Assembly: GCA_023251235.1 (NCBI GenBank)
Contig: JAHEZE010000001.1
Coordinates: 1 to 64,000, forward strand
DNA: 64,000 nt
Reading direction: 5' to 3'
DNA from: Sphingobacteriales bacterium
Lineage (GTDB): Bacteria; Bacteroidota; Bacteroidia; Chitinophagales; Chitinophagaceae
Positions 17,747 to 35,332 of this stretch are shown in pieces. The notes under the pieces are model-generated. The model made no database searches, had not been told where the DNA came from, and saw nothing but the letters and a program-made list of their open reading frames with translations. The translations under genes were made by a program, and so were the position numbers. How positions within the stretch are numbered: the first letter of the stretch is position 1; the number at the start of each line of letters is the position of its first letter.

Positions 17747-18256
17747 TTGAAATTAATTCTATCATCATCACAGTTAGCGATAACTATTAAACGCCTGGCA
17801 CACCAGGTGCTGGAAAATCATAGTGATATTGAGAATATTGTTTTCATTGGTCTTCAGCCCCGGGGGATTTTTCTTTCTGACCGGTTGGTAGAAGAAATAA
17901 AAAAAGAATTACCTGGAAGGAAGATACTTTATGGTAAACTGGATATTACATTTTACCGCGATGATGTTCGTAAAGAACTTCATAAGGCTAATCAGACAGA
18001 TATTCTGTTTTCAATAGAAGGAAAAAACGTTGTGCTCATTGATGATGTTCTTTATACCGGACGTACCATAAGGTCTGCCCTGGATGCTCTTCTTGGTTTT
18101 GGCCGCCCGGCAAAAGTTGAACTATGTGTATTGATTGATCGCCGCTTCAGCCGGCAATTCCCGATACAGCCAGACTATACAGGTAAAGCCATTGACTCCA
18201 TTGTAACACAAAAAGTGAAAGTAGAGTGGGCAAATGATGAAGTAGTCATTTACTGA
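17747..18256 (+). CDS. pyrR: PyrR: pyr regulator / uracil phosphoribosyltransferase
   Basis: This 169-residue type I PRTase has the PRPP loop VVLIDDVLYTGRTIRSA (about residues 98-114), the IGLQPRGIFLSDRL loop near 34-47 and DITFYRDD near 68, all characteristic of PyrR. PyrR binds pyr mRNA in some bacteria and has weak uracil phosphoribosyltransferase activity. The start must be TTG at 17747 (or ATT at 17738): an in-frame TAG at 17729-17731 excludes anything longer and no ATG fits. Its expected partner pyrB lies 16 kb downstream, on the far side of the SusCD block. Whether PyrR binds RNA in Bacteroidota is not established here. Confidence 0.92.
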   Translation: MKLILSSSQLAITIKRLAHQVLENHSDIENIVFIGLQPRGIFLSDRLVEEIKKELPGRKILYGKLDITFYRDDVRKELHKANQTDILFSIEGKNVVLIDDVLYTGRTIRSALDALLGFGRPAKVELCVLIDRRFSRQFPIQPDYTGKAIDSIVTQKVKVEWANDEVVIY

Positions 18257-18600
18257 TATTTTTTTTCAGTAAGTTAATTTAATGGGGATAAAATTTTTCA
18301 ACTTATTTTTAGACTATTGGCAGCCAATTAAGCTACAAATAATTCTTATCTGAAAATATTTAGTTTGAGTTTAAAATTTTAGTATTTCTCATTCTTTAAA
18401 AAGTAAAATGAAAATAGTAAATGAGTTAATTTAATGTGATAAAATTAACTTGAAAATTCTTGCAAAGTTTTCAATTTCAACATACTAAACCTAACACTTG
18501 TTAGGAAGTTTTAAAAAAAAATATATTTAAAAAGCTACACATTTGTCTTTTTTTACAGAACTTGCTGTAAGTCTGCTAATATTTAAAAACATTTTGCATT
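18257..18600 (+). promoter_or_regulatory. susC upstream region with direct repeat and dyad
   Basis: This is a gene-free 344-bp AT-rich region. AGTTAATTTAATG followed by GGGATAAAATT (18272-18295) recurs as AGTTAATTTAATG plus TGATAAAATT (18424-18446), a near-perfect direct repeat 152 bp apart. A dyad CCTAACA-CT-TGTTAGG sits at 18490-18505, about 95 bp before the susC ATG. These are candidate regulator sites; no sigma/anti-sigma, HTCS or other SusR-type regulator gene is present nearby. No clear -7 box was identified. Confidence 0.45.
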
Positions 18601-21600
18601 ATGAGAAAATTAAAACAAATCCTTGTCAAACCGACAAGAACGATCCCGATTTTTATTTTAATCCTGTTTGTAAGCCTTACTGCGACTGCGCAAAAACAGG
18701 TAACCGGAGTAGTTAAAGAGAATGGCTCTCCTGCAATTGGAGCTTCAATTTTAGTTAAAGGCACTTCAGTAGGTGCTTCCACTGGAACTAATGGAGCATT
18801 TACCATTACAGTGCCTGCCGGAAAAAGTATTCTGGTCATTTCTTCTATCGGTTTCGATACGAAAGAAGTGAATGTTTCGGCTGTTACAAACATTGAAGTA
18901 AACCTGGCAACGGCTACAAGCACTTTGAATGAAGTGGTTGTAACAGGTTACACTTCTCAGAAAAAGAAAGAAATTACAGGCTCAGTTGCTGTAGTTAACA
19001 TGAAAGATGTAAAGCAAACACCTGTTGGAACTGGTGAGGAAGCTTTACAAGGTCGTGCTGCGGGTGTTACTATTCTCAGTTCTGGTCAGCCCGGAGCCGC
19101 AAGTGATATCCGGATAAGAGGTATCACGGCATTTGGTAATAATTCACCACTTATTATCGTTGACGGTGTAAGAGGTAACCTGCATGATATTAATATTAAT
19201 GATATTGAGTCTATGCAAGTGTTGAAAGATGCATCTGCTGCTATATATGGTGTGGCAGGTTCTAACGGTGTTATTATTATTACTACAAGAAAAGGAAGAT
19301 CCGGGAAAGCTAAAATCAGTCTTGATGCATACGCTGGAACTGTAACCCGTGGTCCCGGATTCGACATGGCAAGCACACAGGAAGAAGCTAATGCTATTTG
19401 GCAACAACAGCGTAACTCGGGTATTACAAATCCCAGTAGCAAGCAATATGGAAGTGGCGCTACACCTGTTATCCCTGACTTTATTACTCCTTATGGAGTT
19501 TCAGGTGCTGGTCCCGATCCGTTAACTTATGATATTAACAGTAACCAAATAACAAGGGCCAATAAAATTGGTACAAACTGGTATAATGAAATTACCCGGA
19601 ATGCCCCGGTAAAAAACGTTAACTTATCAATAAGTTCGGGTAATGATAAAAGTTCTTACTTCTTTTCTGTGGGCTATCTTGATCAGCAAGGTATTGCCAG
19701 GTTCCAATATCAAAAAAGATATTCAGTAAGGGCAAATACACAGTTTACAATTAAGGATAAAATCCGTGTTGGGGAAAACGCTTATGTTTTTCAAAAAAGT
19801 AATCCTATTTATGGAAATCAGGGTGAAGGAAGTCCTTTTTCCGTTGCTTTTCGTGAAGACGCAATTATTCCTGTATATGATATAGTGGGAAATTTTGCCG
19901 GTACTAAATCTCAGGATTTAGGGAATGCACAAAATCCTTATGCTAACATTTACCGTTCCAAGGATAATAGAAATCATAATTGGGATATACAGGGAAATGT
20001 GTTTGCAGAATTTGATTTCCTGAAACATTTTACCATTCGTTCCAGCTATGGCGGTTTAGTTGATAATTATTCCTATTATTATTTTAACTATGTTGGTTAC
20101 GAAAATGCTGAAGGAAATACAGGTTCAAACTCTTTTCATGAAGGTGGAGGTTATAACACCAGCTGGACATTTACCAATACTTTAAATTATAGCAATACGT
20201 TTGGTAAGCATAATGTAAAAGGCCTTATCGGTACTGAAGCAGTTGAATATTATGGAAGAGGTATGGAGGCTGGAAGAAGCCAATATTTCTCAGAGAATCC
20301 AAATTTCTGGATACTTGATGCTGGTTCTCCCAGCGGTCAGTCGAATACTGGTTTTGCCTACCAAAGTTCGCTATGGTCACAGTTTGCAAGGGTGGAATAT
20401 GACTATGACGGAAAATATCTTTTGAACGCAAGTGTACGCAGGGATGGTTCATCCGTGTTTGCCGCAGATGTCAGATATGGTTATTTCCCTGCTGTTTCTG
20501 CCGCATGGAGAGTATCCCAGGAAGACTTTCTTAGAAATGTGTCATGGATCAATGATTTAAAATTACGATACAGTTGGGGTAAACTGGGTTCTGCCAGCAA
20601 CGTTAACAGTACTAATCCTTTTAATCTTTATGGCTCAAGCGCAGGCCATTCTTATTATGATATTGCAGGTAACAGTAATACTCCAGCGGCCGGTTTCAGA
20701 AGAAGTAATATCGGAAACCCTGAAACAACATGGGAGGGTGATATCATTTCTAACGTAGGGTTAGATGCAACTCTCTTTAAGAATAAATTTGATTTCACCT
20801 TTGATTTTTACAAAAAGAAAGTCAGTGGATTATTATTCGATGCTTCCGGAACACAATATGACAGGATATTTACAGGTGATGTAACACTCCCCAAAGTGAA
20901 TATTGGCGATATGCAAAATACCGGGATCGATTTTAGCGCTACCTATCATGGTACTATAAACAAGGATATGAAATTTGATGTAACGGGTAGTATGACTACT
21001 TATCACAATCAAATCATTCATATACCCGGTGTTCCTTTCTTCAATGGACCCACAATCAGAAATTTTTCTCCAACACGCAACCAGGAGGGACATCCTGTAG
21101 GAGCTTTCTTCGGTTACCAGGTTGTTGGTCTTTTTCAAAGTGCAGCAGATGTTGCCAGCTCTCCAACACAGAATGATGCGGCTCCTGGATTATTCAAATA
21201 TGCGGATATAAACGGGGATAAAAAAATAGATGGTGATGACCGTACATATCTTGGCGATCCAAATCCAAGTTTTACTTATGGGTTAAACATTTCATTTAGT
21301 TATAAAAACTTTGATTTCTCTACTTTCTTCTTTGGTTCTAAAGGGAATGATGTTTTTGATAATACAAAAACTTTTACTGACTTCCCTGATTTCTTTAAAG
21401 GTGGTTTGAGAAGAGATGTTGCACTTAATGCATGGACGCCAACAAACACTAATACTTCTATCCCAAAATTGAGAACAACAGGAGGATTTAGTACTGACAA
21501 TGTGGCCAACAGTTACTATATCAGCAAGGGATCTTATATGCGTAATAAACAAATGCAAATTGGTTATGTTTTTCCAACAAATTTGCTTTCAAAAATTGGT

Positions 21601-21777
21601 ATTGATAGGTTACGTATTTATGCGCAGGGTACTAATTTGTTTACTATTACCAAGTACACGGGTCTGGATCCTGAACTACAAAGCAGTGATATAGGAAATA
21701 CCGTTGGGTTTGGTATCGATAATGGTAACTATCCGCATACGCCAGGTATTCTTTTTGGTATAAACCTTAATTTTTAA
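18601..21777 (+). CDS. SusC/RagA-family TonB-dependent outer-membrane transporter
   Basis: This 1058-residue protein has a signal peptide (1-31, ending TATAQ), a CarboxypepD_reg-like beta-sandwich (about 33-110, QVTGVVKENGSPAIGASILV), a TonB-box region (NEVVVTGYTSQ), a plug domain (about 125-230) with the SusC signature DASAAIYGVAGSNGVIIITTRKG, and a long beta-barrel ending in GILFGINLNF with a terminal Phe. It moves oligosaccharides or other large nutrients across the outer membrane with energy from TonB. It is followed 19 bp later by susD, the usual pair. The downstream GH16 suggests a beta-glucan, but the ligand cannot be read from the receptor. Confidence 0.95.
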   Translation: MRKLKQILVKPTRTIPIFILILFVSLTATAQKQVTGVVKENGSPAIGASILVKGTSVGASTGTNGAFTITVPAGKSILVISSIGFDTKEVNVSAVTNIEVNLATATSTLNEVVVTGYTSQKKKEITGSVAVVNMKDVKQTPVGTGEEALQGRAAGVTILSSGQPGAASDIRIRGITAFGNNSPLIIVDGVRGNLHDININDIESMQVLKDASAAIYGVAGSNGVIIITTRKGRSGKAKISLDAYAGTVTRGPGFDMASTQEEANAIWQQQRNSGITNPSSKQYGSGATPVIPDFITPYGVSGAGPDPLTYDINSNQITRANKIGTNWYNEITRNAPVKNVNLSISSGNDKSSYFFSVGYLDQQGIARFQYQKRYSVRANTQFTIKDKIRVGENAYVFQKSNPIYGNQGEGSPFSVAFREDAIIPVYDIVGNFAGTKSQDLGNAQNPYANIYRSKDNRNHNWDIQGNVFAEFDFLKHFTIRSSYGGLVDNYSYYYFNYVGYENAEGNTGSNSFHEGGGYNTSWTFTNTLNYSNTFGKHNVKGLIGTEAVEYYGRGMEAGRSQYFSENPNFWILDAGSPSGQSNTGFAYQSSLWSQFARVEYDYDGKYLLNASVRRDGSSVFAADVRYGYFPAVSAAWRVSQEDFLRNVSWINDLKLRYSWGKLGSASNVNSTNPFNLYGSSAGHSYYDIAGNSNTPAAGFRRSNIGNPETTWEGDIISNVGLDATLFKNKFDFTFDFYKKKVSGLLFDASGTQYDRIFTGDVTLPKVNIGDMQNTGIDFSATYHGTINKDMKFDVTGSMTTYHNQIIHIPGVPFFNGPTIRNFSPTRNQEGHPVGAFFGYQVVGLFQSAADVASSPTQNDAAPGLFKYADINGDKKIDGDDRTYLGDPNPSFTYGLNISFSYKNFDFSTFFFGSKGNDVFDNTKTFTDFPDFFKGGLRRDVALNAWTPTNTNTSIPKLRTTGGFSTDNVANSYYISKGSYMRNKQMQIGYVFPTNLLSKIGIDRLRIYAQGTNLFTITKYTGLDPELQSSDIGNTVGFGIDNGNYPHTPGILFGINLNF

Positions 21778-21796
21778 ATTCTTAAAAATTCTCTAT

Positions 21797-23572
21797 ATGA
21801 AACTTAAAAAAATAATATATAAACTGGCAATTCCTGCAAGCCTTTTGCTACTCGTTCTTTTTGTAGCTTGTAAGAAGAGTTTTTTAGAAAAACCGCCATT
21901 AGGAACCTTAAACCCTGAAATATTGGCGACCGAGAAAGGTGTTAATGGGTTATTAATAGGGGCTTATTCCCTTGTTGATGGAGAAGGTGCATCCGGCGAT
22001 GGTTTTGCCTCAGGCGCTTCTAACTGGGTATATGGCGGCGTAGCAAGTGATGATGCCTACAAGGGATCAGATCCTACTGACGTAGCTGTGGCAGCACCCT
22101 TTGAAGAATGGGTATCATTAGATGCAAACAATGGCGCTATACCTCAGAAATGGAGTCTTTGCTATGCCGGTGCTCAGCGTTGTAACGATGTAATAAATAC
22201 ACTTGCAATTGCAACGGGTATTTCGGCCCCAAAGGCGACAGCTATTGAAGCTCAGGCTCGTTTTTTAAGGGCTTACTATCACATGGAATTAAAGAAATGT
22301 TTTAACAATATTATTTATGCTGATGAAACTGTGAATCCTCAGAATATTGATGTTGACAATTTAACAGATGTGTGGCCAAAAATTGAAAATGACTTAACAT
22401 TTGCTGTTGCCAATTTGCCCGCTACATGGAGTGAGGTAGGAAGAGCAAATTCATGGGCAGCAAAAGCATTACTGGCAAAGGCATATATGTTTGAAAAGAA
22501 GTATTCCACTGCTTATCCTATACTTCAGGATATAATTGCCAATGGAAAAACATCTGGTGGTATAAAGTATAAGTTGTTCGATAACTTTTATTCAAACTTT
22601 AATCCGGCACAAAAGAACGGTTCTGAATCTGTTTTTGCAGCACAAACTTCTGTTCACGACGGATCTTCTGTAGATTGGGGTGGTGATCCCAATGGTAATT
22701 ATGGCGATATTCTAAACTTTCCTTACACAGGAGGTCCGGGTGCATGCTGCGGTTTTTATAATCCATCACAGGATCTTGCCAATGCTTTCAAGACTGATGC
22801 AAATGGCCTTCCTTTGTTAGATACATGGTACACCGGCAATAATGTTAGCGCTGAATCTGGAACATCCTATGCAGGAAATTTGGACCCAAGAATTGACTGG
22901 ACGATGGGCAGACCTGGAATTCCTTACCTTGATTGGGGTATACATCCCGGAATTGACTGGATAAGGAACCCCGCAAATGATGGTAATAAAAGCCCGTTAA
23001 AAAATGTGTATGCTGCTTCGCAAAAAGATGCATTTACAGATGTGGGCAGTGCCTATTGGGGACCTACCGAGTTAGTTGCTAATAATGTAAATATTATACG
23101 CTTTGCTGATGTAAAATTATGGGCTGCAGAATGTGCAGCAGATGCTAATGATTTAACGGCTGCAAAGAATTATGTTAACGATGTTCGTAACAGGGCTAAG
23201 AATTCAGCCTGGGTGAAAACCGGCAATTACGATGCTTCTACAGCAAGCTATACCTCAGGTGCGAATGCTGCTACTTATAAAGTTGAGCCATATACCAGCT
23301 TCGCTGATAAGGCAACTGCTGTGAAGGCAATCCAGTTTGAAAGAAGACTTGAATTAGCAATGGAAGGTAATCGCTTCTTCGATCTGGTAAGATGGGATAT
23401 AGCTGCGCCTGTTATTAACGCATTTATTGCCAGGGAAAAATCATTCAGGCCATTAAAGTTAAATGCAAATTTTGTGGCTCCTAAGAATAATTATTTCCCT
23501 ATTCCACAGGGAGAAATTGATAACATGAATGCAGACGGGAAAAAACGTTTAACCCAAAACACCGGTTATTAG
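21797..23572 (+). CDS. SusD/RagB-family surface lipoprotein
   Basis: This 591-residue lipoprotein has its lipobox LFVAC at Cys25, followed by KKSFLEKPPLGT, the usual SusD opening. The alpha-helical TPR-like core includes RCNDVINTL, AQARFLRAYYHMEL (about residue 150) and SWAAKALLAKAYMF; the C-terminal part has LWAAECAADAND, the ERRLELAMEGNRFFDLVRW motif (about residues 513-531) and YFPIPQGEID near the end. SusD caps the SusC pore and captures ligand at the cell surface. It is co-transcribed with susC; a strong terminator lies 32 bp after the stop. Confidence 0.95.
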   Translation: MKLKKIIYKLAIPASLLLLVLFVACKKSFLEKPPLGTLNPEILATEKGVNGLLIGAYSLVDGEGASGDGFASGASNWVYGGVASDDAYKGSDPTDVAVAAPFEEWVSLDANNGAIPQKWSLCYAGAQRCNDVINTLAIATGISAPKATAIEAQARFLRAYYHMELKKCFNNIIYADETVNPQNIDVDNLTDVWPKIENDLTFAVANLPATWSEVGRANSWAAKALLAKAYMFEKKYSTAYPILQDIIANGKTSGGIKYKLFDNFYSNFNPAQKNGSESVFAAQTSVHDGSSVDWGGDPNGNYGDILNFPYTGGPGACCGFYNPSQDLANAFKTDANGLPLLDTWYTGNNVSAESGTSYAGNLDPRIDWTMGRPGIPYLDWGIHPGIDWIRNPANDGNKSPLKNVYAASQKDAFTDVGSAYWGPTELVANNVNIIRFADVKLWAAECAADANDLTAAKNYVNDVRNRAKNSAWVKTGNYDASTASYTSGANAATYKVEPYTSFADKATAVKAIQFERRLELAMEGNRFFDLVRWDIAAPVINAFIAREKSFRPLKLNANFVAPKNNYFPIPQGEIDNMNADGKKRLTQNTGY

Positions 23573-23603
23573 TATTAAATAAAGTTCTTAATAATTATTT
23601 ATT

Positions 23604-23638
23604 GAGAGGTAGAGTATCAATACTCTGCCTCTTTTTTG
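23604..23638 (+). terminator. strong intrinsic terminator after susD
   Basis: AGAGGTAGAGTAT (23605-23617) pairs with ATACTCTGCCTCT (23620-23632), 13 pairs with one T-G wobble, followed by a run of T. It separates the susCD message from the FG-GAP gene starting at 23673, so the latter needs its own promoter or readthrough. Confidence 0.88.
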
Positions 23639-23672
23639 TAATACTGTTTCTTTCTATCCAAAAGTATTTTTA

Positions 23673-26600
23673 ATGAAAACTATAAATGGGTTATTCTTTG
23701 TTCTTATAATAGTATGTATCGCATCATGCCGCAATAAGAAACCTTTATTTCAATTAATTTCTTCAAAACATTCAGGAATTCATTTTGCAAACAGCATTGT
23801 AGAAAATGATTCTGTCAATCCTATAGATCTCACCAACATTTATAATGGTGGAGGAGTTGGCGTGGGTGACTTTAATAACGATGGGTTGGAAGATTTATAT
23901 TTTACAGGTAACCAGGTATCAAACGGCCTATATATAAATAAGGGAAATTTCGAATTTGAAGATATAACAGATAAAGCCAATGTAGGCGGTAATAGCAGAT
24001 GGAGCCGGGGCGTCTCTGTTGTTGACCTTAATAATGATGGTTGGGAAGATATATATGTGAGTGCAACTATTTTAAAAGAACCGGATAAAAGAAAAAATCT
24101 TTTATATATTAACCAGGGTATTGATAAAACCGGCATTCCGCACTTTAAAGAAATGGCCGCCGAATATGGATTGGATGATACCACTCACACCACTATGGCT
24201 GCATTTTTTGATTATGATGGCGATGGAGATCTTGATGTTTACTTAGTCGTTAATCAAATTATTAAAGGCAATAACCCTTCTTCTTTCCGCCCTAAAATTA
24301 AAGATGGTTCATATCCAAGTACAGGAAGATTGTACAGGAATGATTGGGATAATAATTTAAACCATCCGGTATTTTCTGATGTTACCAAACAAGCAGGCGT
24401 GAGTATTGAAGGGTATGGTCATAGTGTAAATATTGCTGATTTTAACAATGATGGCTGGAAAGATATTTTTGTTGCCAATGACTTTAACTCGAATGATTTG
24501 CTGTATATAAACAACCATGACGGGACTTTTACAGATAAAGCTTCTGTTTATTTTAAGCACACTTCAGCAAATGGAATGGGTGCTGATGTGATAGATATTA
24601 ATAATGACGGGTTATCTGATATTGTAGAGCTTGATATGAATCCGGAAGATAACTACCGTAAAAAAATGATGATGAGTGCAAATAGCTACCAGACTTATCA
24701 GAACAGCGATTATTTCGGATATCAATATCAGTATGTAAGAAACACTTTACAACTAAACCAGGGTGAAAGAGTAAATAATAATGATTCAATCGGAGACCCG
24801 GTTTTTAGTGACATAAGTTTCTATTCCGGCATAGCTGAAACCGACTGGAGCTGGACTCCCCTGGTAACAGATTTTGATAATGACGGATATCGTGATATTA
24901 TTATTTCCAATGGATTTCCAAGAGATGTTACAGATCATGACTTCATCGCATTCCGCAAACAATCGAGTACGATTGCTTCACAGGATTTTACTTTATCTCA
25001 AATCCCCCAGGTGAAGTTGCATAATTATGCTTTTCATAATAACGGAGATTTAACCTTCAAAAATTTTACTGATCGATGGGGATTTTCAACACCCTCATTT
25101 TCCAATGGCGCTGCGTATGCAGATCTTGACAATGACGGCGACATGGATGTAATAATAAATAATATTAACGATGAAGCATTTGTTTATAAGAATACACTGA
25201 TGGATTCCAAAGAAAAAAATCAGCATTATCTTACTGTTAAATTAAAAGGAGATCCAAAAAACAGGGACGGCTTTGGCGCCTGGCTCAAAATTTTTTACGG
25301 CGATAAAAAACAGGTATTCGAACAATCCCCATACCGCGGGTATTTATCAAGCATTGACAATCGGCCTCATTTTGGATTAGGTACCACGTCAAAGATTGAT
25401 TCCTTGATTGTAATATGGCCGGACAGCCGCGAACAAATTATTAAAAATATATCTGCCGATCAGATGATCACCGTTGACATTAAAAATGCAGATCGAATAC
25501 ATGATTGGCATAAACCCATTAAAACAACGAATAGCATATTCAGGGAAATAACTGATTCGCTAAAAATAAACTATACAAACAGGGGAAGAGATTTTGTGGA
25601 TTTTAATATTCAAAAATTATTGCCTCATAAATTTTCCGAATTCGGTCCGGCATTGGCCGTTGGCGATGTAAATGGTGACGGATTGGATGATATCGTTGTC
25701 GGTGAATCTGCCGGATTTAGTTCTTCCATTCTTATGCAGCAAAAAAACGGAACATTTATTCAAAAAGATTTAATGCCGGCGGTAACACCTCAAACTAAAA
25801 CTTGGGACGATGAAGGTATTTCTCTGTTTGATGCAGATAGTGACGGAGATCTCGATATTTATATTGCAAGCGGGGGCTATCAAAGCCCGGCTAATAGCGC
25901 TGCATACATGGACAAACTTTTCATTAACGATGCGAAAGGAAATTTTAGTTTAGATACGACTGCATTACCAAAGAATTTTACAAGTAAATCCTGCGTCCGG
26001 GTTACTGATTTTGATCATGATGGCGACCTTGACTTGTTTGTTGCCGGAAGAGTAGAACCTTCCTTTTATCCCAGGCCCGTTTCCAGTTACATTTATCGGA
26101 ACGATACAAAAAACGGAGTGATAAAATTTACAGATGTTACTTCTTCTGTGGCACCCTCACTGCAGAATATTGGTCTTATATGCGATGCCGTATGGACGGA
26201 TTTCGATAACGATGGCTGGCAAGATCTTATTTTAGCCGGGGAATGGATGCCAATCACTTTTTTAAAGAATGTAAATGGTTCTTTTAAAAATATTACTTCA
26301 TCTTCCAATGTTCAAAATAAAAAAGGCTGGTGGACAAGCATTTTACCCGGCGATTTTGATAATGATGGCGATATAGATTATGTCGTTGGTAACTTAGGCT
26401 TAAATTCTTTTTTCAGGGCAAGCGATCGGTATCCGGTCAGCATTTATGCTAAAGATTTTGATAATAACGGAAGTTTTGATGCAATACCAAGTTTGTATCT
26501 TCCCACTTCTCAGGAAGATACCGTAAAAAGAGAGTTTCCGGTGCACATGAGGGATGACATCATTAAACAAATGATTTACTTCCGTTCAAAATTTCAGAAT

Positions 26601-27254
26601 TATAAATCTTATGCATCTTCTACGTTTGATGAAATGTTTACCCCTAAAGAGAAGGATGGGATATTGAAACTACAGGCAAATTATTTTGGCAACAGTTATT
26701 TGCAAAATGATGGGAACGGGAAGTTTACATTGATACCGTTGCCCGCTAATATTCAATATTCCTGCATGAATGGAATGCTGTCAGAAGATTTTGACGGTGA
26801 TGGAAAACTGGATGTTTTAATGGTCGGTAACGATTATGGCACTGATGTTTCTGTTGGCAGATATGATGCCTGCAATGGACTAATGCTGAGAGGCAATGGG
26901 AAGGGTAACTTTTCCGCTTTGTCAATTTTGCAAAGCGGTTGGTTCGTTCCGGGAAACGCAAAATCATTAGTGAAATTGCGAAGCAGTAATGGACAATGCT
27001 TAGTTGCTGCAAGTCAAAACAGAGATAAACTGAGAATATTTGAGATGAAAGGAAATACAGAATTTGTTCAATTGCAACCATTGGATATTAGTGCAATAAT
27101 TAATTATAAAAACGGAACAAGGCAAAAAAAAGAAATATATTATGGGGATTCTTTTTTATCTCAATCGGGGAGGTTTTTAAATATTAGCAATGATGTTTTG
27201 TCTGTTACTATAAAAGATACGGAGGGTCATGAGCGACAGATAAATTTTAAATGA
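23673..27254 (+). CDS. FG-GAP/VCBS-repeat lipoprotein with ASPIC/UnbV domain
   Basis: This 1193-residue lipoprotein (lipobox IASC, Cys19) carries at least 14 calcium-binding-type FG-GAP motifs of the form D-x-N-x-D-G, for example DFNNDGLEDL, DYDGDGDLDV, DFDNDGYRDI, DVNGDGLDDI, DFDHDGDLDL and DFDGDGKLDV, spread over two beta-propeller regions (about 55-510 and 640-1150). Between them an ASPIC/UnbV domain (about 517-605) reads DGFGAWLKIFYG and LGTTSKIDSLIVIWPDS. Such proteins resemble animal CRTAC1 and are abundant in Bacteroidota next to SusCD; the function is unproven, possibly ligand capture at the surface. It is separated from susD by a terminator and followed 75 bp later by a smaller FG-GAP protein. 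Confidence 0.92.
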   Translation: MKTINGLFFVLIIVCIASCRNKKPLFQLISSKHSGIHFANSIVENDSVNPIDLTNIYNGGGVGVGDFNNDGLEDLYFTGNQVSNGLYINKGNFEFEDITDKANVGGNSRWSRGVSVVDLNNDGWEDIYVSATILKEPDKRKNLLYINQGIDKTGIPHFKEMAAEYGLDDTTHTTMAAFFDYDGDGDLDVYLVVNQIIKGNNPSSFRPKIKDGSYPSTGRLYRNDWDNNLNHPVFSDVTKQAGVSIEGYGHSVNIADFNNDGWKDIFVANDFNSNDLLYINNHDGTFTDKASVYFKHTSANGMGADVIDINNDGLSDIVELDMNPEDNYRKKMMMSANSYQTYQNSDYFGYQYQYVRNTLQLNQGERVNNNDSIGDPVFSDISFYSGIAETDWSWTPLVTDFDNDGYRDIIISNGFPRDVTDHDFIAFRKQSSTIASQDFTLSQIPQVKLHNYAFHNNGDLTFKNFTDRWGFSTPSFSNGAAYADLDNDGDMDVIINNINDEAFVYKNTLMDSKEKNQHYLTVKLKGDPKNRDGFGAWLKIFYGDKKQVFEQSPYRGYLSSIDNRPHFGLGTTSKIDSLIVIWPDSREQIIKNISADQMITVDIKNADRIHDWHKPIKTTNSIFREITDSLKINYTNRGRDFVDFNIQKLLPHKFSEFGPALAVGDVNGDGLDDIVVGESAGFSSSILMQQKNGTFIQKDLMPAVTPQTKTWDDEGISLFDADSDGDLDIYIASGGYQSPANSAAYMDKLFINDAKGNFSLDTTALPKNFTSKSCVRVTDFDHDGDLDLFVAGRVEPSFYPRPVSSYIYRNDTKNGVIKFTDVTSSVAPSLQNIGLICDAVWTDFDNDGWQDLILAGEWMPITFLKNVNGSFKNITSSSNVQNKKGWWTSILPGDFDNDGDIDYVVGNLGLNSFFRASDRYPVSIYAKDFDNNGSFDAIPSLYLPTSQEDTVKREFPVHMRDDIIKQMIYFRSKFQNYKSYASSTFDEMFTPKEKDGILKLQANYFGNSYLQNDGNGKFTLIPLPANIQYSCMNGMLSEDFDGDGKLDVLMVGNDYGTDVSVGRYDACNGLMLRGNGKGNFSALSILQSGWFVPGNAKSLVKLRSSNGQCLVAASQNRDKLRIFEMKGNTEFVQLQPLDISAIINYKNGTRQKKEIYYGDSFLSQSGRFLNISNDVLSVTIKDTEGHERQINFK

Positions 27255-27329
27255 TTTTCTACCATATTAAAGAATTCTAACTTGCATTAGTATTTATTTT
27301 TTATAAAAAATGGGCGAGAGAAATTTATA

Positions 27330-28901
27330 ATGAAGGTTGTTGTATCTTTTATTGCGGCTGTAATTTTTTTACTGGCATATTTGTTAAGTTCATGTAATAA
27401 TATTAGGAGAAATAATTCTCACCGTACTGTGCCAATATCCAATATTGAAAAAGGGAAGGTGCTGGCCGCTAATTATTGCCAGTCCTGTCATTTACTTCCC
27501 GATCCTTTGTTGGTTGATTCAAAAACTTGGGAAAAAGGTATTCTGCCGAATATGGGCCCGAGATTGGGTATTTTTCGTTTCAATAAAAAGAATTACCCTT
27601 CCAGTAAATATGATCCAGGCCTTAGCAGTAATTTTTATCCTTCAAAACCTGTCTTAACAGATGAAGAATGGGGATATATTATAGATTATTATACATCCGC
27701 ATCGCCTGACTCCATATCAGCCAGGCAAAGCCGCCCTTATCCAATTAAAAAAACTTTGTCTCAGTTTATACCGCTCACGCCTCAATTTAATTATCCTGAA
27801 CCAGCTACCAGTTGTGTTAAAATAGATGCATCAGACACATTGCATCCTCTCAATACAAGCGATGCGATTAAACAAATGATATATCGGTTTAATAAAAACA
27901 TCGTTCTTACAGATTCAATTAAAACAAATGGACCTGTTGTTAATATTGAAATTCAGAATCATGAATGGCTCGCCACTAATATCGGCATATTGATTCCGGA
28001 TAACGGGAAATATGGAGAGGCGAATTACTTTAAAAAATTACATAATGGACAAATGCAAATAGATTCAAACCCATTATTTAACAGATTACAAAGGCCTGTT
28101 CAAATAATTACAGCAGATCTGAACAATGATAATAAACAAGATTACATTATCTGCGAATTTGGTTATTTGGAAGGTGCATTGGTTTGGATGGAAAATACCG
28201 GAGATGGAAAATTTGCCCGGCATATTTTAAGACAATTTCCCGGTGCTATTAAAGCATATGTTCAGGATTATAATCATGATGGCCTTCTGGATATTTGGGC
28301 ATTATTTGCACAGGGTGAAGAAGGAGTCTTTCTTTTTACGAATCTGGGTCACGGTCAATTTTCCCAGGAGGAAGTATTACGTTTTCCCTCCATCAATGGC
28401 TCATCATATTTTGAGTTAGCTGATTTTAATAAGGATGGTTACCCTGACATTGTATACACATGTGGCGACAATGCTGATTTTTCAACAGTTTTAAAACCCT
28501 TTCACGGAGTATATATTTATTTAAACGATGGCAAAAACCATTTTGAAAAAAAATATTTCTTTCCGATCAATGGGTGTTATAAAGCAATTGCAAGAGACTT
28601 TGATCATGATGGCGACCTTGATATAGCAACTATAGCATATTTTGCGGATTACGAACATCAGCCTGAGGAAGGATTTATTTACCTGGAGAATAAGGGTAAT
28701 TACAATTTCCTTCCTTATAGTTTACCTGCTGCTGAAACAGGCAGATGGCTTACAATGGATGCCGGCGACTTTGATGGAGACGGAAAAACTGATTTGATCC
28801 TGGGCAATTTTTCGAAAGCCCCTTCTTTTATTAAATCAAAAAATGATTGGAAAAAAGGGCCGCCTTTTATCATTTTAAAAAATACAGGCCGGAATAATTG
28901 A
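27330..28901 (+). CDS. lipoprotein with cytochrome c-like heme motif and FG-GAP propeller
   Basis: This 523-residue lipoprotein (lipobox LSSC, Cys22) has a heme-attachment motif CQSCH at residues 50-54 inside GKVLAANYCQSCHLLPDP, and a possible distal Met at residue 75 in LPNMGPRLG, so the N-terminus looks like a small c-type cytochrome (about 38-130). The remainder (about 240-520) carries five FG-GAP Ca-binding motifs: DLNNDNKQDY, DYNHDGLLDI, DFNKDGYPDI, DFDHDGDLDI and DFDGDGKTDL. A redox domain fused to a beta-propeller suggests electron transfer coupled to binding or oxidation of a substrate outside the cell. Heme loading is inferred from the motif alone. It lies between the large FG-GAP gene and a type IX-secreted protein. 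Confidence 0.85.
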   Translation: MKVVVSFIAAVIFLLAYLLSSCNNIRRNNSHRTVPISNIEKGKVLAANYCQSCHLLPDPLLVDSKTWEKGILPNMGPRLGIFRFNKKNYPSSKYDPGLSSNFYPSKPVLTDEEWGYIIDYYTSASPDSISARQSRPYPIKKTLSQFIPLTPQFNYPEPATSCVKIDASDTLHPLNTSDAIKQMIYRFNKNIVLTDSIKTNGPVVNIEIQNHEWLATNIGILIPDNGKYGEANYFKKLHNGQMQIDSNPLFNRLQRPVQIITADLNNDNKQDYIICEFGYLEGALVWMENTGDGKFARHILRQFPGAIKAYVQDYNHDGLLDIWALFAQGEEGVFLFTNLGHGQFSQEEVLRFPSINGSSYFELADFNKDGYPDIVYTCGDNADFSTVLKPFHGVYIYLNDGKNHFEKKYFFPINGCYKAIARDFDHDGDLDIATIAYFADYEHQPEEGFIYLENKGNYNFLPYSLPAAETGRWLTMDAGDFDGDGKTDLILGNFSKAPSFIKSKNDWKKGPPFIILKNTGRNN

Positions 28902-28996
28902 TGAATAAAACTATTGCTGTAATGAAGAATTTGTATTGATTATTCTTTTTACAAATTTGATAAAGTATTTCGTTTAAATAAAACAGCCGGGTTTTT

Positions 28997-30928
28997 ATGA
29001 AGTTGTTGATATCTGTCATATTTTTTCTTTTGTTTCGTATTGATCTGTTAATGGCTCAGGTCTGTTCTGGTAGTTTGGGCGACCCGGTACTTAACCAAAC
29101 TTTTGGTACCGGAAATAATAGACTTCCTTCTAATAAAACCACATATACTTTCATGCGTGGATGTCCATCAAAGGGTAATTATACTCTTAGTGATTTTCTT
29201 TTTGGTTGTGGAAACAGAACCTGGGTGCAAATGATCGGTGATCATACTCCGGGTGATTCAAGAGGAAACTACATGCTGGTTAATGCAGAAAATACCCCTG
29301 GTACTGTATACATGGATACTGTAAAAGGACTATGCGGCAGTACCGTATATCAATTTGGAATGTGGGTTACCAGTGTAATGTCGAAATTCGCTTGCAACGG
29401 GAATGCACAGTTGCCAAATCTGAAATACCAAATAAAGACTTTATCGGGAATCACACTTGCAATGGATAGTACCGGTTATTTACCAATTGTCATTGAAAGG
29501 GAATGGAAATATTTTGGGTTTTCAATAAAAACACCCATGGGCATCACAGATGCAATTGTTTCTATTACTATTAATCCGCCTTTTGGTTGTGGAAGCGCTT
29601 TTGCACTTGATGATATAACATTAAGCCCCTGCGGACCTACAATATCTGCAACGATTGATGGAACGGCCGGTCCGGCTGCTGTTTGTGCAGATTATATTAA
29701 CCCTTTTGTTATGAATGCGACTTATTCACCGGGGCTTAACGACCCTGCATTGCAATGGCAAAGCAGTGCAGACACTGGTAAAACCTGGAAAGATATATCT
29801 GGTGAAACAACATTGACTTATAATGTTCCGCATAGAACTTCGGGTGAAATTTTGTATCGTGTTTGTATAGCAGAAAAAGAAAATATTAATTCTCTTAATT
29901 GCAGAATAGCTTCTAATGTTATTAATACAAGCGTCCATCCTGTTGCGGAACATAAGGCACCTCAAAACATGCTGGGTTGTTTGTTTAAAGATTTTTTGTT
30001 TCCCGAAACAGATCCAAAAGCATTTCAGGTGTTATGGACAGGACCTAATGGGTTTAGTTCAAATCTGGCCGCTTCATTTCTTCCAAATATTCAATATAAA
30101 GACACAGGATTATATAAGCTAAAGGAAACATTCGATTATGCTTGTATTTCAGTTGATACTTTTTATTTAAAAGTATATCCCGGAACTACGGTTTCAATAC
30201 TTCCCGGTTATCCAATATGCAAGGACATGTCAGAAAACTTATCAGCTTTTTCGCCTGATCAAGTCAGTTATCAATGGACACCTTCCGCAGGTTTATCAAG
30301 TGTTACAATTGCAAATCCGGTTGCCCGGCCAAGTGACACGACAAATTATAAATTAGTTGTTACAAACTCCTTTGGCTGTAAAGATTCAGCTTATGTACAG
30401 ATAAATGTTTATCAAAACCCCTATGCCGATGCAGGGCCTGATAAATCAATAATTCTTGGGGACACTGCATCGTTAAATGGATTTTTAAAAGGAACGGCTG
30501 TAAATTTTTTCTGGTCTCCCTCAACATTTATGGATGATAGTCGTTCAGCCAATCCCAATGTTTTTCCAACTATTGATACCCGCTATACTTTGCATGTTTC
30601 TTCTACTGTTGGCTGCGGAGTAGCTACAGATGATGCTATTGTCAAGGTATATAAGGATATTTTTATCCCAAACGCCTTTACACCAAACGGAGATGGAAAA
30701 AACGATTTATTTCAGATACTGGCATTTGGTAATTATAAACTGCTCAGGCTGCTTATCTATAATCGCTGGGGGCAAATCGTTTTTAATGCTTTGGATAGTA
30801 ATAAAGGATGGGATGGTACATATAAAGGCATTCCGCAGCCTTCTGGTGTATTTGTTTATTATTTAGAAATGAAGTCACCGATTGGAAAAAAGATAAATAA
30901 ACGTGGGACGGTTTTATTGGTGCGTTAG
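28997..30928 (+). CDS. type IX-secreted protein with gliding-motility C-terminal domain
   Basis: This 643-residue protein has a signal peptide ending LLMAQ and an N-terminal Cys-rich beta domain (about 20-215; CPSKGNYT, FGCGNRTW, CGSTVYQFGMWV, FGCGSAFALDDITLSPC) of a type common in Bacteroidota surface proteins and possibly carbohydrate-binding. Ig/PKD-like repeats follow, including YQWTPSAGLSS and FFWSPSTFM. The C-terminus is a CHU_C/gliding-motility-associated domain (about 555-643): DIFIPNAFTPNGDGKNDLF, IYNRWGQIVF and WDGTYKGIPQPSGVFVYYLE, a type B type IX secretion signal. It should be exported and held at the surface. No PorP/SprF gene is directly adjacent. Confidence 0.88.
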   Translation: MKLLISVIFFLLFRIDLLMAQVCSGSLGDPVLNQTFGTGNNRLPSNKTTYTFMRGCPSKGNYTLSDFLFGCGNRTWVQMIGDHTPGDSRGNYMLVNAENTPGTVYMDTVKGLCGSTVYQFGMWVTSVMSKFACNGNAQLPNLKYQIKTLSGITLAMDSTGYLPIVIEREWKYFGFSIKTPMGITDAIVSITINPPFGCGSAFALDDITLSPCGPTISATIDGTAGPAAVCADYINPFVMNATYSPGLNDPALQWQSSADTGKTWKDISGETTLTYNVPHRTSGEILYRVCIAEKENINSLNCRIASNVINTSVHPVAEHKAPQNMLGCLFKDFLFPETDPKAFQVLWTGPNGFSSNLAASFLPNIQYKDTGLYKLKETFDYACISVDTFYLKVYPGTTVSILPGYPICKDMSENLSAFSPDQVSYQWTPSAGLSSVTIANPVARPSDTTNYKLVVTNSFGCKDSAYVQINVYQNPYADAGPDKSIILGDTASLNGFLKGTAVNFFWSPSTFMDDSRSANPNVFPTIDTRYTLHVSSTVGCGVATDDAIVKVYKDIFIPNAFTPNGDGKNDLFQILAFGNYKLLRLLIYNRWGQIVFNALDSNKGWDGTYKGIPQPSGVFVYYLEMKSPIGKKINKRGTVLLVR

Positions 30929-30994
30929 AAAGTTTTTAGAATTACACGTAACACTGGATTAATTTATTTTTTAAAGGAAATAATTTTTTTAAAA

Positions 30995-31456
30995 ATGAAT
31001 AAGCTAATTATCATATCAGTTTGTATTATTTTATCGGCAGCCTGTAAAAATAAAGTTAATACTTATGAAAATAAACTTGGGGTTAAACCTGCCGCATTAG
31101 CTGAAATGGATAAAGTTAATTATACAAAAATTCAGTGGCTGGATACACTTAAAAACTTTGGAAGTATTAATGAAGGTGATTCAGTGCTAATAAAATTTTA
31201 TTTTAAAAATAAAGGGAATACGGCATTGTTTATTCTTCAGGCACGTCCAGGTTGTGGTTGCACTCTTACAGATTATCCGCAAAATGCCATTCTGCCCGGA
31301 GAGCAGGGCGCCATTACTGCTACTTTTAATTCAAAAGAGCATCCGGGTATAATTACAAAAAGTATATTAGTGAAAACAAATACAATTAATAACACATTTC
31401 AAAAATTGGAGTTTTCAGGCGAAGTAATAAACAGAAATCATGTTTCAGGAAAATAA
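30995..31456 (+). CDS. DUF1573 lipoprotein
   Basis: This 153-residue lipoprotein (lipobox SAAC near residue 16) has one DUF1573 domain, an immunoglobulin/ASPM-like beta-sandwich: TKIQWLDTLKNFGSINEGDSVLIKFYFKNKGNTALFI, the Cys motif RPGCGCTL, and an ending with GIITKSILVKTNT. The family is widespread in Bacteroidota; its role is unknown. It lies 66 bp after the CHU_C gene and 129 bp before GH16 and is probably part of the same surface set. Confidence 0.9.
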   Translation: MNKLIIISVCIILSAACKNKVNTYENKLGVKPAALAEMDKVNYTKIQWLDTLKNFGSINEGDSVLIKFYFKNKGNTALFILQARPGCGCTLTDYPQNAILPGEQGAITATFNSKEHPGIITKSILVKTNTINNTFQKLEFSGEVINRNHVSGK

Positions 31457-31585
31457 TTTATCTTATTTTGCCGTCATCATAAGGTTTATATATATATGAT
31501 ATCTTTTAATTTTTATCTTGTGACTAATTTAATCGAAAAAGTTTTATTTATTGAAATTCAGGTTTAGTAAAATCAATAATTAATT

Positions 31586-32755
31586 ATGTTCAGAAAAGTG
31601 CTTATCCTTAGTTTTCTTATTTTGGTTTTTGTTCAATGCAAAAAAAAAGATTCCGCTCCGGCCGTTTCTAAACCAGCTGCAACCATTCTTGATGTTTCCC
31701 AGGACAGGGCTGTGAGTTCATCCGTTTTTCGTTTTTCTGTGAATTTGGACAAACCGGCACCCAATACTGTTTCTATGCATTATTCAACAGTTGCCGGTAC
31801 GGCCATTGCTGCAACTGATTTTATTGCAATATCAGGTACTCTTACAATTGCTACTGGTTCGCAATTTGCAACAATAGAAGTAACTGTTACCGGTGACAGT
31901 TTACGAAAAAGCGATCAGTTTTTTTATGTGCAATTGGATAATCCTCAAAATTGCATTCTTACAAATAATAAAGGCACGGGAATAATACAAAATAAAAACA
32001 GTCTTTATTTTCCGGTATCAAATACAGGTTATTCCACACCTGATAATTATGCAGGCTATAATTTGGCATGGAGCGATGAATTTAATGGTTCATCAATTAA
32101 TGTGGGCAACTGGACTTTTGAAGCAGGAAATAACAATGGATGGGGTAATGGAGAACTTGAAAATTATACAAACCGCATACAAAATGCATTTGTATCACAA
32201 GGCAATCTTATTATCGAAGCAAGGCAGGAAGGAAATAGTTATACATCTGCACGCATGATTACTAAGAACAAAAGGGCTTTCACTTTTGGTCGGGTTGACA
32301 TAAGGGCCAAACTTCCCACGGGCAAAGGTATTTGGCCCGCATTGTGGATGTTGGGTAATAATATTGATATAGTAAATTGGCCTGCATGCGGAGAAATAGA
32401 TATAATGGAGTTACTGGGGCAGGACCCCAATAAGATCTATGGTACTCTGCATTGGGGTGCAAATTCTGCGACTCATGCTTCAAAAGGAAGTTCTTATGTA
32501 TTAAGCCCCGGTAGTTTTGACCAGCAATTTCATGTTTATAGTATTATCTGGACACTGGATAATATAAAAATCCTTGTGGATGATATTCAGTACCTGAGTT
32601 TCAGTTCAGCAGATGTTTCAGGAAATTACCCATTCAATAAAGATTTCTTTTTCATATTTAATATAGCGATAGGCGGAAACTGGCCTGGTTCACCCGATAA
32701 CACAACAGTATTTCCGCAACGGATGATTGTTGATTATATAAGAGTATTTCAATAA
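31586..32755 (+). CDS. GH16 beta-glucanase (laminarinase-like) lipoprotein with Calx-beta domain
   Basis: This 389-residue lipoprotein (lipobox FVQC near residue 18, then KKKD) is built of a Calx-beta domain (about 30-130: RFSVNLDKPAPNTVSMHYSTVAGTAI) and a GH16 jelly-roll (about 150-389). The catalytic signature GEIDIME places the nucleophile at E270, D272 between, and the acid/base at E275. Flanking motifs LAWSDEFNGSSI, KGIWPALWMLGN and FFFIFNIAIGGNWPG are typical of the beta-1,3-glucanase/laminarinase subfamily. It hydrolyses internal beta-1,3(4)-glucan bonds at the cell surface and would supply oligosaccharides to SusCD. It is the only plain polysaccharide-degrading enzyme of the block. 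Confidence 0.93.
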   Translation: MFRKVLILSFLILVFVQCKKKDSAPAVSKPAATILDVSQDRAVSSSVFRFSVNLDKPAPNTVSMHYSTVAGTAIAATDFIAISGTLTIATGSQFATIEVTVTGDSLRKSDQFFYVQLDNPQNCILTNNKGTGIIQNKNSLYFPVSNTGYSTPDNYAGYNLAWSDEFNGSSINVGNWTFEAGNNNGWGNGELENYTNRIQNAFVSQGNLIIEARQEGNSYTSARMITKNKRAFTFGRVDIRAKLPTGKGIWPALWMLGNNIDIVNWPACGEIDIMELLGQDPNKIYGTLHWGANSATHASKGSSYVLSPGSFDQQFHVYSIIWTLDNIKILVDDIQYLSFSSADVSGNYPFNKDFFFIFNIAIGGNWPGSPDNTTVFPQRMIVDYIRVFQ

Positions 32756-32807
32756 AAATCATGTGTTTTATAAAAATTATTAATTACTATCGTGCAAAAA
32801 TTTGGGT

Positions 32808-34127
32808 ATGAAAAAAAATATTGCATTTCTGCTGAATGTTATTATTTTTCTTTTTGTTGGATTATCATCCTGTAAACAGAAAAATAATATCATTATAAAC
32901 AGTACTGAAGTACTTCATCAAAATCAGGATCAGCTGACACAGGTAATCATTTATGATGTGTTTACCCCACCGGTTGCCAGCAGGATATATGCTTATACTT
33001 CACTGGCATCCTATGAAGCTATCAGGTTCTTACAACCGGGGAATGCATCTCTTGCAGAAAAAATGAGAGGCTTTGGGAAAATGCCTTTGCCTGACAGCAG
33101 TAAAAAATACGATTATACACTCGCAGCAACAAAAGCTTTTTTCACAGTGGCTCATAAAGTTACTTTTTCAATAGATACATTGAAGAATTATGAAAATCCT
33201 CTTTTCGAAAGATTCAAACAATCACTTGATGATTCAACTTACAACCGATCAATTAATTTCGGAGAAGCTGTTGGTAATGCAATTTTAGCGAGAGCAATAA
33301 AAGATAATTATCTTCAATCAAGAGGAAAGCCAAAATTTTTAGGCAGTAATGAACCCGGAAAATGGAGGCCAACGCCACCGGATTATCTTGATGGAGTTGA
33401 GTGGTGCTGGAATACTATGATGCCACTTGTTATCGATTCTGCTTCGCAATTTACTCCACCTGATCCACCTGAATACAGTATGGACACTACCAGTGAATTT
33501 TATAAAATGGCAAATGAAGTATATCTTATCAATAAAAACCTTACTGATGAACAAAGAGAGATTGCAAAATTCTGGGACGACAATCCGTTTGTTATAGAAC
33601 ATTCAGGGCATCTTATGTTTGGCAATAAAAAAATTACACCCGGAGGTCATTGGATGGGAATAGCTGCTATCGCCTGTAAACAAACAAATGCTGACGAAGT
33701 AAAGGTTGCAAAGACCTATGCTTTAACAGCAGCTTCATTATTTGATGCATTTATTTCCTGTTGGGATGTTAAATATAAATACAAATACATACGGCCTATA
33801 ACAGTTATAAACGAAAATATTGATAAAGCCTGGACATCTGTTTTGCAAACACCACCATTCCCTGAATACACCAGCGGCCACAGCACAATTACAGCATCAG
33901 CCGCCACGCTGCTAACTTTTTTATATGGCAACAATTTTGCATTTCAGGATACAAGTGATATGCGATACATTGGTATGCAGCGCCATTTTGATTCTTTCCT
34001 GCAGGCATCCGATGAGTGTTCAATCAGTCGGCTTTATGGAGGTATTCATTATCGTTTAAGCGTAGATAAGGGGGCAGAATCCGGGAAAAAAATCGGGGAA
34101 TTCTTAATCAGAAAATTATTAAAATAG
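32808..34127 (+). CDS. vanadium-dependent haloperoxidase/PAP2-type lipoprotein
   Basis: This 439-residue lipoprotein (lipobox LSSC near residue 22) belongs to the vanadium haloperoxidase / acid phosphatase (PAP2) superfamily. Active-site motifs: KYKYKYIRP (Lys and Arg binding vanadate or phosphate), FPEYTSGHST (Ser, Gly, His) and SRLYGGIHYRLSVD (Arg and the metal-linked His). The spacing and the KYxYIRP form match bacterial haloperoxidase-like proteins rather than plain PAP2 phosphatases. Whether it oxidises halides or removes phosphate cannot be told from sequence. The start is the ATG at 32808; a TTG six bases earlier is less likely. It is the last gene of the surface block, before pyrB. 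Confidence 0.88.
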   Translation: MKKNIAFLLNVIIFLFVGLSSCKQKNNIIINSTEVLHQNQDQLTQVIIYDVFTPPVASRIYAYTSLASYEAIRFLQPGNASLAEKMRGFGKMPLPDSSKKYDYTLAATKAFFTVAHKVTFSIDTLKNYENPLFERFKQSLDDSTYNRSINFGEAVGNAILARAIKDNYLQSRGKPKFLGSNEPGKWRPTPPDYLDGVEWCWNTMMPLVIDSASQFTPPDPPEYSMDTTSEFYKMANEVYLINKNLTDEQREIAKFWDDNPFVIEHSGHLMFGNKKITPGGHWMGIAAIACKQTNADEVKVAKTYALTAASLFDAFISCWDVKYKYKYIRPITVINENIDKAWTSVLQTPPFPEYTSGHSTITASAATLLTFLYGNNFAFQDTSDMRYIGMQRHFDSFLQASDECSISRLYGGIHYRLSVDKGAESGKKIGEFLIRKLLK

Positions 34128-34352
34128 GCCATCGTCTATTTCTAATTTTCAACCATCAGGGCTTTAAATAAAGGCCCATTCAGCAGCCTATTTAACAGGA
34201 TACATTACAAACTAGTTTGAGTGTTGGGTTGAGTTTTGGAAAAAGTGGAAATGAATGTTTTAAAAAAACAAACCAATAGAATTAACCGTCGCCAAAAATT
34301 ATGAATAAAGTTTTCTGAATTTAAGGGCCAAATTCTTTATCTTCGATCTTTA

Positions 34353-35288
34353 ATGAGCCTTTCTGCTAAACATCTGCTGGGAATTAAAGACCTCGTTAAA
34401 GAAGATATTTCCCTTATTTTAGAAACAGCCACTCAGTTCAAGGAAGTTTTACAAAGACCAATAAAGAAGGTACCTTCCCTTAGAGATGTTACCATCGTGA
34501 ATCTTTTTTATGAAAGCAGTACCAGAACGCGGTTCTCTTTTGAACTTGCCGAAAAAAGACTTTCTGCCGATGTAATCAATTTCTCTGCCTCCGGTTCATC
34601 TGTTTCAAAAGGCGAAACATTGCTGGATACTGTGAACAATATCCTTTCCATGAAAGTAGATATGGTCGTAATGAGGCATAGTGCAAGCGGGGCTCCGCAT
34701 TTTTTGGCTAAACATATCCCTGCTGCAATCATTAATGCCGGAGATGGAGTGAATGAACATCCCACGCAAGGCTTGCTTGATGCTTTTTCCATGTTGGAAA
34801 AGTTTGGAACCTTACAAGGATTAAAGGTTGCTATCATTGGCGACATCCTGCACAGTCGTGTTGCTATGAGCAATATTTACCTTCTGAATAAAATGGGCGC
34901 AAAGGTGACTGTATGCGGCCCGCCTACATTAATACCCAAATATATTCATCAGGCTTTAGGTGTTGAGGTTAATTATAATCTAAAAGAAACATTAGAGTGG
35001 TGCGATATAGCTAATGTGTTGCGTATTCAGTTAGAAAGACAGAACCAGGTATTATTCTCTTCTTTACGGGAATATAATCTTACTTATGGCGTAAAAAGGA
35101 GTTTACTGGATGATCTCCATAAAGAAATAATTGTTATGCATCCTGGCCCCATAAACAGGGGAGTAGAACTGGACAGTGATGTGGCTGACAGCAAACAATC
35201 AATTATTCTGCAACAGGTAGAAAATGGCGTAGCCATCAGAATGGCGGTTCTATATTTACTTGCAGGAAGAAATCCCGTGAATAATTAA
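34353..35288 (+). CDS. pyrB: aspartate carbamoyltransferase catalytic subunit
   Basis: This enzyme catalyses the first committed pyrimidine step, carbamoyl phosphate plus aspartate to carbamoyl-aspartate. The 311-residue product has the carbamoyl-phosphate motif YESSTRTRFSFELAEKR (about residues 51-67), HPTQGLLDAFSM (about 131-142), IGDILHSRVAMSN and MHPGPINRGVELDS near the C-terminus. No PyrI regulatory subunit or dihydroorotase is adjacent, so it may act as a trimer or pair elsewhere. coaD, a thioesterase gene and pyrE follow downstream. Confidence 0.96.
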   Translation: MSLSAKHLLGIKDLVKEDISLILETATQFKEVLQRPIKKVPSLRDVTIVNLFYESSTRTRFSFELAEKRLSADVINFSASGSSVSKGETLLDTVNNILSMKVDMVVMRHSASGAPHFLAKHIPAAIINAGDGVNEHPTQGLLDAFSMLEKFGTLQGLKVAIIGDILHSRVAMSNIYLLNKMGAKVTVCGPPTLIPKYIHQALGVEVNYNLKETLEWCDIANVLRIQLERQNQVLFSSLREYNLTYGVKRSLLDDLHKEIIVMHPGPINRGVELDSDVADSKQSIILQQVENGVAIRMAVLYLLAGRNPVNN

Positions 35289-35332
35289 AAATTATTGATT
35301 AATAATTATTAGCTTTCATAACAATTTTTCTC

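Follow-up and report, generated by a model that had tools for sequence, protein, structure and literature searches.

A conserved gene system of SusCD transporters, FG-GAP/ASPIC lipoproteins and predicted vanadium haloperoxidases in Bacteroidota

Why would a predicted vanadium-dependent haloperoxidase be encoded in a gene cluster that is otherwise laid out for glycan uptake? The question is raised by a 64,000-nucleotide stretch of DNA from a Sphingobacteriales bacterium (GenBank assembly GCA_023251235.1, contig JAHEZE010000001.1, positions 1 to 64,000; hereafter the window), in which eight consecutive plus-strand genes, analysed here as one locus (18601-34127), encode a SusC-SusD transporter, an FG-GAP/ASPIC lipoprotein, a cytochrome-propeller lipoprotein, a type IX-secreted protein, a small DUF1573 protein, a glycoside hydrolase of family 16 (GH16) and the haloperoxidase. 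Most work on vanadium haloperoxidases has dealt with enzymes of algae, fungi and marine bacteria, and the surprise lies in the repeated link of glycan uptake with presumed halide and peroxide chemistry in land and freshwater bacteria. A previous reading made without database searches (the sequence-only reading) had singled out these genes as a candidate undescribed system; all eight of its open reading frames (ORFs) were recovered at the same positions, and its family names were upheld by profile scans.

A conserved neighbourhood around the haloperoxidase

We gathered 80 named loci by haloperoxidase similarity only and used the 52 closest for counts within five genes of the haloperoxidase; several contigs end early, so these counts are lower bounds. 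A batch of 20 further neighbourhoods, picked partly by eye, was excluded from the association statistics. The FG-GAP/ASPIC gene was present in at least 47 of the 52 loci, susC in at least 43 and susD in at least 42, followed by the cytochrome-propeller gene (at least 28) and the genes for DUF1573 (at least 6), the type IX-secreted (CHU_C) protein (at least 5) and GH16 (at least 1). The sequence-only reading had proposed such a survey and had named, as a refutation, the case that the other genes never travel with SusCD; instead, the association was confirmed. Its picture of a single eight-gene unit stood only in part: susC, susD, the ASPIC gene and the haloperoxidase gene form the core and the cytochrome-propeller gene is a common companion, but DUF1573 and CHU_C are occasional members and GH16 is almost confined to the window locus.

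The association is also one of position. Profile searches across all loci placed the ASPIC gene immediately before the haloperoxidase (position -1) in 49 of 78 loci, against a background of 4 in 309 gene slots at +3 to +8 and about 1-2% at flank positions; susD stood at -2 in 37/76 loci, susC at -3 in 38/70 and the cytochrome-propeller gene at +1 in 20/77. The typical order, susC-susD-ASPIC-haloperoxidase, is kept in Segetibacter, Sediminibacterium, Mucilaginibacter, Chitinophaga and others, and the ASPIC and haloperoxidase ORFs range from overlapping, as is often the case, to about 100 bp apart. Two loci of Limnovirga soli (L116 and L118) carry seven of the eight genes, with GH16 missing, and DUF1573 recurs beside the cytochrome-propeller gene in both of these and in L124. 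The ASPIC gene also lay next door in 18 of 23 newly fetched loci with short flanks, other classes of the phylum included, and the haloperoxidase itself was found in 77 of 297 genomes of a phylum sample. We regard the existence of a genuine, conserved gene system of SusCD, ASPIC and haloperoxidase as close to certain.

Within this system, two pairs of genes diverge together. Across the 39 loci holding all four core genes, distance matrices correlated at 0.90 for ASPIC and haloperoxidase and at 0.90 for susC and susD, compared with 0.41-0.61 for cross-pair comparisons; shared descent inflates all of these values, and the informative part is the contrast among them. Co-divergence thus supports an ASPIC-haloperoxidase pair and a SusC-SusD pair while linking the two only weakly, as expected of two modules that have been repeatedly combined. 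Dyadobacter and Chitinophaga eiseniae illustrate this: their ASPIC-haloperoxidase pair is >60% identical to that of the window, but their SusD is only 22-23% identical. A different type of SusCD therefore stands beside the same pair, the oxidative pair having been kept and the transporter exchanged.

In the window, the block is one discrete cassette, because it exactly fills the gap between pyrR and pyrB (window 17747-35800), two genes that lie close together in most relatives. The left boundary is a pyrR-type phosphoribosyltransferase gene (17747..18256, plus strand; Pribosyltran) and the right boundary is pyrB, encoding aspartate carbamoyltransferase (34353..35288, plus strand; present in 59/61 family genomes). 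The distance from pyrR to pyrB is at most about 1.5 kb in 20 of 29 relatives, and the order pyrB-coaD is kept. Neither pyrR nor pyrB was found near the other surveyed haloperoxidase loci, so the cassette is located elsewhere in those genomes. A test for foreign composition did not separate the block from its flanks: its GC content of about 0.33-0.42 per kb overlaps theirs, and base composition is therefore uninformative on the origin of the block.

Proteins of the locus

The last gene of the block (32802..34127, plus strand; 441 aa) probably begins at the in-frame ATG at 32808 rather than at the TTG at 32802. Its product is a predicted lipoprotein with a match to the PAP2 family, and a phmmer search aligned residues 10-439 to the solved haloperoxidase 4cit, the Zobellia galactanivorans iodoperoxidase, with an E value of 2.3e-121; the remaining solved matches were all haloperoxidases, with no acid phosphatase among them. 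K324, R331, S358, G359, H360, R410 and H416, which correspond to the vanadate-binding residues, are all retained: K324, R331, H360, R410 and H416 are invariant in 124/124 aligned sequences, S358 is found in 108 and G359 in 121. By family membership, the enzyme is a vanadium-dependent haloperoxidase of the 4cit group, which sharpens the earlier description of it as haloperoxidase-like. A second haloperoxidase locus occurs in the same genome (L193, contig C52, 6652-14340), in the order GH65 enzyme, 187-aa protein, haloperoxidase (~41% identical), two proteins of unknown kind and, last, another protein of the PAP2/haloperoxidase type; L062, L065, L067 and L070 are laid out similarly.

The FG-GAP/ASPIC lipoprotein (23673..27254, plus strand; 1193 aa) matches FG-GAP_3 and has an UnbV_ASPIC domain at residues 533-600. 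It contains 14 calcium-type motifs of the form D-x-[DN]-x-[DNS]-[GKR]-x-x-D, exactly the number counted in the sequence-only reading. Structures were predicted with AlphaFold2 from alignments of relatives, and the model of this protein (pLDDT 91.2) found murine CRTAC1 (9etn) as its best fold in the PDB (E value 2.6e-24; TM score 0.74 over CRTAC1). Family scan and model agree on an FG-GAP propeller with an ASPIC domain after it, as in CRTAC1, and the model fits a protein made of a CRTAC1-like half and, behind it, a second propeller.

The cytochrome-propeller lipoprotein (27330..28901, plus strand; 523 aa) has an N-terminal helical domain with a single CXXCH at residue 50, a C-terminal FG-GAP propeller and four motifs of the calcium type. 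C50, C53 and H54 are invariant and M75 nearly so among 26 aligned sequences, a pattern that fits a His/Met mono-haem cytochrome domain in which M75 would be the second ligand. Its model (pLDDT 89.9) retrieved CRTAC1 first, followed by a fungal aldos-2-ulose dehydratase and integrins; the dehydratase match may reflect a shared propeller fold only, and we read no function from propeller matches because they are generic. A separate multihaem cytochrome with seven CXXCH motifs adjoins the cytochrome-propeller gene on the opposite strand in L103 (12896-14113), with relatives in about ten loci, mostly from Mucilaginibacter.

At the start of the block, susC (18601..21777, plus strand; 1058 aa) encodes a SusC/RagA TonB-linked outer-membrane transporter (TIGR04056, 823 bits; Plug and CarbopepD_reg_2) and is separated by 19 bp from susD (21797..23572, plus strand; 591 aa; PF07980, 132 bits); both are full-length family matches. 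The best solved relative of the lipoprotein SusD is the SusD of 5lx8/6z8i/8aa0 (E value 1e-62), 8AA0 being the levan utilisome (PMC7618045). With adjacent susC and susD and a carbohydrate-active enzyme (GH16) in the block, the locus falls within the definition of a SusCD polysaccharide-utilisation locus. Neither the block nor its flanks, which hold a P5C-dehydrogenase-like gene and pyrR on the left and pyrB and coaD on the right, contained a hybrid two-component or sigma/anti-sigma regulator; a linked regulator is common in such loci but not essential. No Bacteroidetes-type promoter motif (TTTG/TAnnTTTG) was found in the gaps of the block, and sigma-70 type sites were no more frequent than expected by chance. 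A strong hairpin of 13 pairs followed by a T-run, a candidate attenuator from a consensus scan only, lies between susD and the FG-GAP/ASPIC gene (23604..23633, plus strand) and possibly raises SusCD expression over that of the downstream genes.

The GH16 enzyme (31586..32755, plus strand; 389 aa; PF00722) is a predicted beta-1,3-glucanase of the laminarinase type with a Calx-beta domain (PF03160); it matches solved laminarinases with E values down to 9e-69 and has the EIDIME catalytic motif. The remaining two genes encode a secreted protein with a C-terminal type IX (CHU_C) sorting signal (28997..30928, plus strand; 643 aa; PF13585 and TIGR04131, T9SS type B) and a small DUF1573 protein, a probable lipoprotein (30995..31456, plus strand; 153 aa; PF07610). 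Lipoboxes had been assigned to every product except SusC and the CHU_C protein, which was a slight overstatement: those of GH16 (FVQC) and DUF1573 (SAAC) are non-canonical.

Elsewhere, the enzymes beside the core genes vary. L109 and similar loci carry a GH30 enzyme of the endo-1,6-beta-glucanase type, a GH3 beta-glucosidase and GMC oxidoreductases; nine loci have a GH2 enzyme of the exo-beta-glucosaminidase type, L112 has a 3-keto-disaccharide hydrolase and other members have redoxins or multihaem cytochromes. Together with the GH65 enzyme of the second locus, these neighbours identify carbohydrate and redox enzymes as the recurring partners, and the exact glycan may differ among members. Directly downstream of its haloperoxidase, L109 (11333-18469) has two pyranose-oxidase-like GMC oxidoreductases together with GH30 and GH3, and a sugar oxidase there could supply peroxide. 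L059 (9979-18634) shows the theme in another redox version, with a SusD-like_2 protein, an AhpC/TSA redoxin, a CXXCH protein with a C-terminal match to Cu2 monooxygenases, ASPIC and haloperoxidase in one run.

Possible roles of the oxidative pair

We give a probability of roughly 0.4 to the reading that this is a SusCD-type glycan-uptake locus built from two co-evolving modules, in which the haloperoxidase acts on the polymer or uses up peroxide. One module would be the SusC-SusD transporter and the other a surface oxidative pair of two-propeller FG-GAP/ASPIC and haloperoxidase lipoproteins, often joined by the cytochrome-propeller lipoprotein; polymer-degrading enzymes would be swapped from genome to genome, with the GH16 beta-1,3-glucanase as the window's version. 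Sequence comparison and modelling establish the gene content and its recurrence, the operon-like arrangement, the co-divergence, the insertion as a discrete cassette, the intact vanadate site and the predicted folds; we infer surface location, complex formation, halide chemistry and substrate. The lipoproteins may be placed around or on SusCD, as in known utilisomes, in which extra lipoproteins rest on SusC (PMC7618045), and the propeller protein may capture substrate or position the haloperoxidase at the importer, much as the propeller lipoprotein BtuG caps the TonB transporter BtuB (PMC10404256). From hydrogen peroxide and a halide (iodide or bromide), the haloperoxidase would form hypohalous acid right at the polymer, which could oxidatively loosen the polymer or its phenolic cross-links; alternatively, the reaction could use up peroxide released there. 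The cytochrome protein might pass electrons, GH16 would cut beta-glucan and SusCD would import the products. The redox- or calcium-dependent capture by propellers, haem domain and haloperoxidase put forward in the sequence-only reading is plausible as a putative function.

Several observations weigh against this reading. GH16 is nearly private to the window locus (1/52 close loci), which weakens the beta-glucan reading; the earlier assignment to beta-glucan rested on GH16 and was too strong, since relatives have GH30 and GH3, GH2 or no glycosidase. The eight-gene block contains no peroxide source. The ASPIC-haloperoxidase pair occurs without detectable SusCD in L091, L148, L149 and L158 and may therefore serve something other than glycan uptake, and in the relative L196 the same pyr site holds susC, susD and FG-GAP/ASPIC alone, without the haloperoxidase, which suggests that later genes were gained or lost at one site.

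The loci without SusCD would also suit a protective or competitive add-on, in which the pair consumes hydrogen peroxide and makes reactive halogen against host or fungal oxidative defence or against competitors, taking no part in processing the glycan and leaving SusCD and the glycosidases to feed. Redoxins and AhpC/TSA-like proteins adjoin the pair in L059, L126 and L135, and the Zobellia iodoperoxidase vIPO3 is upregulated when the bacterium grows on the brown alga A. nodosum, an effect discussed in terms of a reply to the halogenated defences of the alga (PMC9296495). We consider this role rather unlikely, since a general defence enzyme would not be expected to keep its place and its short distance to SusCD so strictly from genus to genus. 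The variety of SusCD types beside the same pair and the near uniqueness of GH16 to the window could instead mean that the cargo is no glycan at all but, for example, a halogenated or phenolic organic compound or iodine itself, with GH16 as a local addition; iodine accumulation has been reported for Zobellia (PMC9296495). Carbohydrate-active genes nevertheless recur in several lineages (GH30 with GH3, GH2, and GH65 at the second haloperoxidase locus) and the window SusD is closest to the levan SusD among solved proteins, making import of this kind improbable.

Acid phosphatases and haloperoxidases have the PAP2 fold class in common, and the Pfam match is to the generic PAP2 family, as it would be for a surface acid phosphatase that removes phosphate groups from phosphorylated polymers or sets phosphate free. 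This is a still more improbable identity, given that the solved sequence relatives are all haloperoxidases, the best of them matching over nearly the full length; the vanadate ligands are conserved as well, although acid phosphatases share most of them and their presence alone does not exclude phosphatase activity. Finally, the eight genes could be unrelated surface genes that lie side by side, as the varying gene content and the rarity of GH16, CHU_C and DUF1573 might suggest. For the core four genes, chance adjacency is refuted by the positional and co-divergence statistics, the discrete boundaries of the cassette and the recurrence in other classes, and for the locus as a whole we regard it as negligible; GH16 alone could still be a chance neighbour.

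Beyond the uptake of a glycan at this locus, we raise a doubtful generalization: throughout the Bacteroidota, ASPIC and haloperoxidase would together be a surface device of two proteins, confining the production of reactive halogen to a controlled site, and different SusCD importers would have been coupled to it repeatedly, for hypohalite-assisted polymer uptake in terrestrial and freshwater bacteria. If true, oxidative halogen chemistry would join the tools that Bacteroidota use on polymers. The tight, co-evolving tie with a CRTAC1-like surface protein and with SusCD importers provides the haloperoxidase with a specific cell-surface role that can be tested, and the locus puts the many FG-GAP/ASPIC proteins of bacteria into a functional context.

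Comparison with known systems

We found no published description of the SusCD/ASPIC/haloperoxidase combination in the open-access literature searched, an incomplete collection, in line with the sequence-only reading that it was undescribed; the conserved ASPIC-haloperoxidase pair within a SusCD-type polysaccharide-utilisation locus is thus apparently new. The closest known arrangements are the levan and dextran utilisomes of B. thetaiotaomicron, in which, as in the window, a susC-susD pair precedes surface-type lipoproteins and a glycosidase, and whose levan SusD is homologous to that of the window. The window differs from the B. thetaiotaomicron loci in having a two-propeller FG-GAP/ASPIC protein in the usual position of the surface glycan-binding protein, in adding a predicted vanadium haloperoxidase and a cytochrome-propeller lipoprotein, and in lacking a local regulator. 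BtuB-BtuG of Bacteroides likewise pairs a beta-propeller lipoprotein with a TonB-dependent transporter, but BtuG has a single propeller, captures vitamin B12 and has no enzyme partner.

Cartilage acidic protein 1 (CRTAC1, 9etn) shares the FG-GAP propeller and ASPIC domain with the window protein, which is, in contrast, a bacterial lipoprotein, twice as long, in which the ASPIC domain is followed by a second propeller. The haloperoxidase 4cit shares full-length homology and identical first-shell vanadate ligands with the window enzyme, which has Phe at position 263 where 4cit has Tyr, and is itself embedded in a SusCD/ASPIC cassette, in a family with many members from soil and freshwater genera.

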